Shown piece by piece: positions 52,079 through 53,837 of a stretch of DNA of 64,000 bases. How positions within the stretch are numbered: the first letter of the stretch is position 1; the number at the start of each line of letters is the position of its first letter. Position numbers and translations under genes: made by a program. Under the pieces are notes generated by a model. That model saw only the letters and a program-made list of their open reading frames with translations, had not been told where the DNA came from and ran no database searches. Origin of the DNA: Pedobacter sp. Leaf170 (GTDB lineage Bacteria; Bacteroidota; Bacteroidia; Sphingobacteriales; Sphingobacteriaceae); the NCBI RefSeq assembly GCF_920984665.1, contig NZ_CAKLBP010000003.1, forward strand, positions 124,001 to 188,000, written 5' to 3'.

Positions 52079-52528
52079 ATGAAGTGGTTTTTTACTTACG
52101 CGTTATTATTTTCTACATTTTTATTTTCAGCTTCAAAAGCTTTAGCTCAACCTATTCCGGGCCAACCTTACAGCGGGTGCGTAGTTTTAAATACGAATAA
52201 CTCTGTACTTGGTGTAGGCTATATTTTTCAAAATCCAACGGGTTCAGAAGCAACGTTAAATGATTGTGGTGTACCTGGTGTCTCAGGAAATGCACCTATG
52301 TATAATACACCAACAAATTTTGGTGTAACAACATATAATTGTTATTCTCCTGCTTTAAATACTGGTACTAGAAATTGTACAGTAATTTCACCATCCTCAG
52401 GTGCTAAACTTTGCGGGGTACTTATTTCAAATGCAATTTTTTGCCCCTTAGATACATACGTTCCATTTCTGATTCTCTCAGTAGTTGGTTTAACTGGATA
52501 CAATAGCAAAAGAAAGTCATTCAACTAA
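52079..52528 (+). CDS. six-Cys secreted protein with sorting-like C-terminal tail, copy 1
   Basis: A 149-residue protein. The signal peptide ends AKALAQ-type (KALAQ), and the mature domain has six cysteines (CVVLN, DCGVPG, NCYSP, NCTVI, LCGVL, FC). The tail is CPLDTYVPFLILSVVGLTGYNSKRKSF: Pro-Leu-Asp, one hydrophobic helix of about 16 residues and a basic end. The same layout occurs in the next two genes. The tail resembles PID-type C-terminal sorting tails of Bacteroidota (as with exosortase-like systems); the family link is inference. Function is unknown. Composition is secreted, disulfide-like, low in charge. Confidence 0.75.
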   Translation: MKWFFTYALLFSTFLFSASKALAQPIPGQPYSGCVVLNTNNSVLGVGYIFQNPTGSEATLNDCGVPGVSGNAPMYNTPTNFGVTTYNCYSPALNTGTRNCTVISPSSGAKLCGVLISNAIFCPLDTYVPFLILSVVGLTGYNSKRKSFN

Positions 52529-52694
52529 TAATAAATATTTACATAACTATAATTTCTTCAATTTTATTCCGTTTAGGAGTAAGAAGCAGTTTCAGTATCG
52601 CTTCGTTTTCCTAAAAAGCAGATTGTTCCTCCATTTCATATAGCTGGTTCTCAGTAGACATAATAATTAATTGTATTTCATAAACATCCCAACT

Positions 52695-53135
52695 ATGAAA
52701 TCATACAATATTTTAGCATTGTTTTTAATTTTTGCATTGAAATTAAATGCACAAACGTATAATAATGCCTGTGTTATCGTTGTAAATACCGGAGTTTTCG
52801 GTACAACAATTTATACCAATCCAACTGGTGCTACTGTTCCGGGTGCATCAGGCGGTACATGTAATCCTGGTAATATTGGTAGTGCAGCCATCGCCACTTA
52901 CAATACACCGGTGTCATTTTCTAGTAGATGTTTAATCGTACCAATAAGCCCACCATATACCTACAGAAATTGTCATGTGGGTAGTAGCTGTGGTATAATT
53001 ATGAATGTTCAAATTGTTGATTGCCCTATTGATGGCTACATACCTTTTATCTTATCAATAATTGGGCCCGCTGGTTATTTTATAATTCGAAAGTATTTCA
53101 GGCAAAGATTAATACTATCGAAATCCACTTTATAA
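52695..53135 (+). CDS. six-Cys secreted protein with sorting-like C-terminal tail, copy 2
   Basis: From ATG 52695 the protein has 146 residues. Signal peptide ends LKLNAQ; a TTG start 24 nt earlier is unlikely. Cysteines: ACVIVVN, GTCNPG, RCLIV, NCHVG, SCGIIM, DC. The end is CPIDGYIPFILSIIGPAGYFIIRK with basic residues after, i.e. Cys-Pro-Ile-Asp-Gly, hydrophobic helix, basic tail. It has the best match of the three to a PID-type tail. The body carries NPTG and YNTPVSF segments shared with copy 1 (NPTG, YNTPTNF). No enzymatic motif recognised. Confidence 0.75.
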   Translation: MKSYNILALFLIFALKLNAQTYNNACVIVVNTGVFGTTIYTNPTGATVPGASGGTCNPGNIGSAAIATYNTPVSFSSRCLIVPISPPYTYRNCHVGSSCGIIMNVQIVDCPIDGYIPFILSIIGPAGYFIIRKYFRQRLILSKSTL

Positions 53136-53288
53136 ATTAACCACTATTATCTTAGTAAATCAGAATTTGCATTCCAAAAAAGAGTACGAATTATTCATAG
53201 AATCGCGATATAATAACACAAATGTGTTTGATTATCAGTAAATTAGATTAGGTAATCGAATTATTATGTTTCATTAAAGCGCCTTGCT

Positions 53289-53837
53289 ATGAAAGCATAC
53301 ATCATTTTTAAACCAGTCATTTTTTTAAATGATTTAAAATATTTCGCTAAAAAATTTTTTAATGAAAAATATGTTGCCCTCTTAATCATCGTATTTGGAA
53401 TTATCTCTATCAATAAGTCATTTTCAGCTCCTCCAACCGGAACATACAGCGGGTGTGTAATATTGAACAATAATACCACTGTAAGAACTGAATACATTTT
53501 TCAAACAATTGGTATTGGTAACTACCCAGCATCTAGTTGTGGTCTTGGATTTTCAGGTACGATACCTTATTATATTAATCCAACTTCATTTAAAATTAAT
53601 AATGCTGTAGACGAAACTCAATGTTTTATTCCTGGCATAGTTCCTGCAACAACCAGAACTTGCGCAGCAGTAGTAAATAATGCTATGGGCTTACCATTTA
53701 CAGCCTGTGGAGTTGTTATATCTAACATTCAATTTTTCAACTGCCCAATAGATGATTACATATCGCTACTTTTTTTAGTCGCTGGCGCACTTGGATTTCT
53801 CTATATCCGTAAATTTTCAATGCAAAGATTTATATAA
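53289..53837 (+). CDS. six-Cys secreted protein with sorting-like C-terminal tail, copy 3
   Basis: A 182-residue protein with a longer N-terminal extension (about 30 residues, basic, before the hydrophobic signal YVALLIIVFGIISI...SFSA). The mature domain carries SGCVILN, SCGLG, QCFIP, TCAAV, ACGVVISN and NC, all six cysteines in register with copies 1 and 2. The tail is CPIDDYISLLFLVAGALGFL followed by YIRKFSMQRF. SGCVILN is nearly identical to copy 1's SGCVVLN, and CGVVISN to its CGVLISN. Unknown function, presumably exposed at the cell surface or in the matrix. Confidence 0.75.
   Translation: MKAYIIFKPVIFLNDLKYFAKKFFNEKYVALLIIVFGIISINKSFSAPPTGTYSGCVILNNNTTVRTEYIFQTIGIGNYPASSCGLGFSGTIPYYINPTSFKINNAVDETQCFIPGIVPATTRTCAAVVNNAMGLPFTACGVVISNIQFFNCPIDDYISLLFLVAGALGFLYIRKFSMQRFI

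Follow-up and report, generated by a model that had tools for sequence, protein, structure and literature searches.

Tandem genes for cysteine-rich exported proteins in Pedobacter encode predicted substrates of the exosortase XrtY

In Pedobacter sp. Leaf170, three neighbouring genes encode small exported proteins that end in a short motif, a hydrophobic helix and a few basic residues, which raises the question of what these proteins are and whether their C-termini are signals for a sorting enzyme. An earlier note, made from the 64,000-nucleotide stretch in which the genes lie (hereafter the window), had described them as a six-cysteine surface or matrix family with PID-type tails, cut by an exosortase-like enzyme and diverged as if under diversifying selection. 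Our analysis places the three genes, with a probability of roughly 0.78, as a satellite array of a large family of small, divergent exported proteins, the predicted substrates of the exosortase XrtY.

Three cysteine-rich genes among housekeeping neighbours

The genes of the array follow one another on the same strand (Table 1), and each product begins with a hydrophobic segment, preceded in copy 3 by a long n-region. Copy 2 also has a TTG frame start at 52671, but most plausibly begins at the ATG downstream of it (52695). Six cysteines are present in each protein, at residues 34, 63, 88, 100, 112 and 122 in copy 1, 26, 56, 79, 93, 99 and 110 in copy 2, and 56, 84, 112, 125, 140 and 152 in copy 3, in an order common to all three, while copies 2 and 3 are about 40% identical to copy 1. 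The motif SGCV(V/I)LN is found in copies 1 and 3, and CG(V/I) in all three (CGVLISN, CGIIMN and CGVVISN); the tails read CPLDTY, CPIDGY and CPIDDY, respectively, and each continues into a helix and basic residues. The earlier description of the array, with its gene order, common cysteine pattern, recurring motifs and shared CP(I/L)D ending, is accurate in these respects. The window contains 271 frames of at least 50 residues, and CP[IL]D at 18–45 residues from the end is confined to these three neighbours.

By inspection, the neighbours of the array are housekeeping-like genes resembling trpS, kdsB, pyrG and yidC. No sorting enzyme is found among them, and the earlier note was right to see none in the window, as the XrtY gene of this genome lies elsewhere, on another contig. 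In 18 congeners examined, the roughly 1.5 kb that we read upstream of pyrG contain no tail gene, and a search for plasmid spread of copy 3 gave no match. A promoter scan yielded 16 sites compared to 11.0 in shuffled sequences (s.d. 3.0), which is no clear excess. AlphaFold2, given the sequences of the three proteins, reached a mean pLDDT of 40.9 and a pTM of 0.22, values too low for the cysteines to be placed, and the prediction was discarded.

Table 1. Positions of the three genes and their signal regions, numbered from the first nucleotide of the window.
Feature	Positions	Strand	Remarks
Copy 1 gene	52079..52528	+	149-aa exported protein, six cysteines, tail CPLDTYVPFLILSVVGLTGYNSKRKSFN
Copy 1 probable Sec signal peptide	52079..52147	+	MKWFFTYALLFSTFLFSASKALA, assigned by eye; cleavage before QPIPG
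Copy 1 C-terminal sorting tail (putative), from CPLD	52442..52525	+	tail profile E 1.3e-9; tail in the profile's own build set
Copy 2 gene, from ATG	52695..53135	+	146 aa, six cysteines, tail CPIDGYIPFILSIIGPAGYFIIRKYFRQRLILSKSTL
Copy 2 probable signal peptide	52695..52751	+	MKSYNILALFLIFALKLNA; inferred by eye
Copy 2 C-terminal sorting tail (putative), from CPID	53022..53132	+	tail profile E 2.2e-14; tail in the profile's own build set
Copy 3 gene	53289..53837	+	182 aa, six cysteines, tail CPIDDYISLLFLVAGALGFLYIRKFSMQRFI
Copy 3 C-terminal sorting tail (putative)	53742..53834	+	tail profile E 2.9e-15; tail in the profile's own build set

A divergent family with a common tail

A search profile built from the three window proteins only, without reference to XrtY, detected relatives in 42 of the 121 congeneric genomes, a count that includes the genome of the strain itself, indicating that the array is not a chance resemblance. 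With a second profile, built from 50 tails, the number of positive genomes rose to 59 of 121. Homologues, for which the earlier note had advised a profile search, thus occur well beyond the strain, and also outside the genus.

From the window and 41 further stretches we collected 166 tail-matching frames, of which 153 were non-redundant and long enough to be scored. After approximate removal of the signal peptides, the number of cysteines is even in 140 of these 153 members and odd in 13, some of the odd counts being due to cysteines left behind by the rough cut or to truncated frames. Four cysteines are most common (91/153), followed by six (44/153); the six-cysteine pattern of the earlier note therefore holds for the three window copies, but is not the rule of the family. 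Even counts partly reflect common descent of the four core cysteines, which deprives a binomial value of its meaning as a probability, and the informative part is that additional cysteines come in twos. Within the subfamily of the window genes, for example, relatives with GG(V/L) lack both the cysteine of CG(V/I) and one more, and have four in total, although few distinct sequences show this.

The tails of 152 members were compared around the aspartate, which is invariant by construction. It is preceded by leucine (85) or isoleucine (63), and before this by proline (123/152) or asparagine (18/152); it is followed by aspartate (112/152) or asparagine (21/152), tyrosine (112/152), a variable residue and proline or tryptophan. 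Beyond the helix, the net charge averages +2.8 and is positive in 147 of 153 members. The family thereby shows the tripartite layout of an exosortase substrate, a short motif, a transmembrane stretch and a basic end, and from these tails we take (P/N)-(I/L)-D-(D/N)-Y with the helix and basic end as a putative sorting signal. Many arrays contain one member with the tail CNLDD(Y/H)SWxxGAAAGxFGxFxIRxRNK and a CxxC or similar pair (for example L050:7777-8232, L143:7004-7471, L145:7374-7784 and L177:5209-5673), and this protein may be a conserved core member of the arrays.

NCBIfam and Pfam label none of the 44 members that were scanned, and searches of PHROGs and of PDB sequences returned nothing usable for the protein bodies. 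Neither NCBIfam nor Pfam gave a match to a T9SS C-terminal domain, as would be expected of type IX secretion cargo.

XrtY and the distribution of the tail

The genome encodes exactly one exosortase-family enzyme, XrtY (C1:867114-867629), on a contig other than that of the window; an exosortase-like gene, which the earlier note had proposed to look for, is hence present. The enzyme scores 236.5 bits with the XrtY model NF046083 (cut-off 160) and 55.0–57.4 bits with the signature TIGR04178 (cut-off 23), while the next best model, XrtX, gives 64.6 bits against a cut-off of 170. The motifs NYSC, RIAGLG and HHEIFN, whose Cys, Arg and His we take to be the active-site residues of exosortases and archaeosortases, are intact in this XrtY and among the relatives listed. 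The gene is located among glycosyltransferases in an exopolysaccharide cluster, which also encodes the XrtY-associated Wzy-like protein NF046084 (648 bits, cut-off 420). XrtX (NF046081) was considered as an alternative partner and discarded, because it stays below its cut-off in all 121 congeners.

While the window array itself does not adjoin XrtY, the profile search revealed further family members elsewhere in this genome, at C1:826-828 kb and thus at a distance of 39 kb from XrtY. This second array is read in the opposite direction and lies at the far end of the XrtY cluster, next to genes for a Wza-like export lipoprotein, a Wzc-like kinase and an UpxY antiterminator. One of its members is degraded by two in-frame stops, with the tail intact (C1:827534-827641 in the own genome; L050:9538-9699). 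Near the edge of the second array (L050:5752-6397), two small adjacent genes resemble, by eye, a HEPN/MNT nucleotidyltransferase toxin-antitoxin pair.

Across the genus, tails are present in 51 of 51 congeners with a high-scoring XrtY, compared to 8 of 70 others (Fisher 5e-26, kinship ignored). High-scoring here means 209 bits or more, a line that was set after we had seen the gap in scores between 209.7 and 198.2, and the Fisher values given here overstate independence because the genomes are related. Among the eight exceptions, two (G015 and G063) are marginal tail matches, one (G076) has a frame-broken XrtY and another (G043) an XrtY fragment, and G037 is an 81%-complete draft; in G030 the array stops at a contig edge, and its flanking gene order is that of the cluster in the own genome. 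The remaining two, G049 and G025, have one tail each, and no XrtY was found in them. In a second, family-wide sample, nine of nine additional congeners with a high-scoring XrtY were tail-positive, and outside the genus XrtY is present in 13 of 14 tail-positive genomes (Fisher 1e-5, kinship ignored; totals by genus counted by eye). In 39 genomes an array and XrtY are 24.8 to 49.0 kb apart, with a median of 36 kb; for this and the genus-wide comparison, positions and genome sets were transcribed by hand from the search tables.

In G076 and G062, a frame change interrupts XrtY (L232:956-1565 and L233:1029-1660), due to either sequencing error or decay, and the arrays are kept. The orphan array protein of G049 (L231:8177-8656), where XrtY was not detected, sits among genes that look mobile.

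In a sister genus (g14), where XrtY is common, most XrtY-positive genomes lack such a tail, and a rough filter applied around six of its XrtY loci returned only noise and no convincing array. XrtY therefore likely reads another signal there, and its pairing with the tail described here is confined to a part of the bacterial family.

Predicted sorting by XrtY and competing explanations

Since the tail co-occurs with XrtY and in 39 genomes an array lies 25–49 kb from it, we favour the reading of these proteins as XrtY substrates. They would be exported by Sec with removal of the signal peptide and would fold in the periplasm, where four core cysteines, and extra cysteines in pairs, would form two or three disulfides. 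The C-terminal helix would then anchor them transiently in the inner membrane, with the basic end in the cytoplasm, until XrtY, as an enzyme of the Cys-Arg-His type, cuts at, or close to, the (P/N)-(I/L)-D-(D/N)-Y motif, upon which the proteins would be transferred or released to the cell surface or matrix along with the exopolysaccharide of the XrtY-linked cluster. Their destination at the surface or in the matrix, together with the polysaccharide, is a prediction by analogy with PEP-CTERM systems. Of the earlier proposal, exosortase-type sorting of an exported family is supported by the homologues, the enzyme, its co-occurrence with the tail and their proximity, while the six-cysteine rule, diversifying selection and a match to PID_CTERM are not.

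The PID_CTERM model of NCBIfam (NF046080) bears on how the tail is to be named. It shares with our family a P-I-D core, a helix, a basic end and its occurrence in Bacteroidota, and copy 3 touches it with 15.5–18.1 bits, so that the tails might be a divergent PID_CTERM branch, with XrtY and its relatives reading one P-(I/L)-D core. This would affect naming, not mechanism, and is compatible with the proteins being XrtY substrates; we nevertheless consider it somewhat doubtful. The score of copy 3 is below the cut-off of 26, copies 1 and 2 do not match, and neither does any of the 44 family members scanned at E 0.01. Where PID_CTERM proteins have PVPIDGG...AAGVAYG, our family has (C)P-(I/L)-D-(D/N)-Y-x-(P/W), and its members have cysteine-rich bodies of about 90 residues, whereas PID_CTERM signals are at least partly found on tiny proteins, in frames of about 55–135 residues. 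The two also differ in the XrtY subtype that they accompany. A lower-scoring XrtY (113–198 bits) is found in 24 congeners, and PID_CTERM is detected in 23 of these 24 genomes compared to 5 of 97 others, with matches taken at E 0.001 and some of them below the curated cut-off; tail type and XrtY subtype thus go together within a single genus. The earlier assignment to PID-type tails accordingly captures a relationship, but not membership by the curated cut-off. We find it rather probable that Pedobacter has disulfide-rich XrtY substrates with a so far unlabelled (P/N)(I/L)D(D/N)Y-CTERM, and that two XrtY subtypes have co-diverged, each with a tail of its own.

The tail could also be an ordinary C-terminal membrane anchor of exported proteins to which XrtY is unrelated, as it is short, hydrophobic and basic like any single-pass anchor and, in several orthologue pairs, more variable than the body. 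We regard this as unlikely, since a plain anchor would need neither a P-(I/L)-D-D-Y motif, nor presence in every one of the 51 XrtY genomes, nor a site beside the XrtY cluster.

Large, divergent and disulfide-rich arrays of paralogues in many species are likewise what one might see if selection had diversified contact-dependent toxins, adhesins or kin-recognition proteins. Between genomes, however, dN of orthologous bodies is far below dS (for example 0.02 vs 0.22, 0.03 vs 0.43 and 0.11 vs 0.56). The diversifying selection suggested in the earlier note is therefore not supported, and is contradicted by these pairs; the divergence between copies is old. As purifying selection acts on the orthologue bodies, as we noticed nothing like an immunity partner gene in the second array of the genome, and as Pfam and NCBIfam gave no match, we judge such a role very unlikely.

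Least probable of all is a tag like MYXO-CTERM, in which, as proposed for myxosortase, an invariant cysteine is lipidated and a CPBP-type protease removes the helix to leave a lipid anchor (PMC11980579): our tails have the same tripartite layout with basic end, and the last cysteine directly precedes the helix, three residues before the aspartate, in 123 of 152, but it lies 4–24 residues from the aspartate in the other 29, and in 25 of these the total remains even, as a disulfide partner and not a fixed lipidation site would, and the linked enzyme is an exosortase. Because its position moves while the total stays even, the tail cysteine would seem, from sequence, to belong to the body more than to the signal.

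XrtY as predicted partner of this family can be set against better-known systems. PEP-CTERM/XrtA (EpsH) systems of Proteobacteria have their exosortase among exopolysaccharide genes that include Wzc-, Wza- and Wzy-like ones, and their exported proteins carry a tripartite C-terminal tag. Both features have their counterpart here, and the matches to NF046083 and NF046084, which pass their cut-offs, fall within a single exopolysaccharide cluster; XrtY, however, is of another enzyme subfamily, the tails lack a PEP motif, and in the scanned proteins every model of an XrtA-system component stayed below its cut-off. XrtF of Flavobacterium johnsoniae is also a Bacteroidota exosortase, whose deletion affects surface colonisation and biofilm and whose substrates were named as future work by the authors (PMC10936215), whereas the enzyme here reaches only 52 bits with the XrtF model (cut-off 90). 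No NCBIfam model matches the proteins described here, and our literature search found no paper mentioning XrtY, although a description may exist elsewhere.

Exosortase substrates of Bacteroidota are little known, and the present family supplies candidates for XrtY. As these are small, expressible proteins with a clear motif, encoded near XrtY clusters, the question of the substrate is directly testable. If the pairing is true, two enzyme subtypes with two tails in one genus would form a natural set for studies of exosortase recognition.
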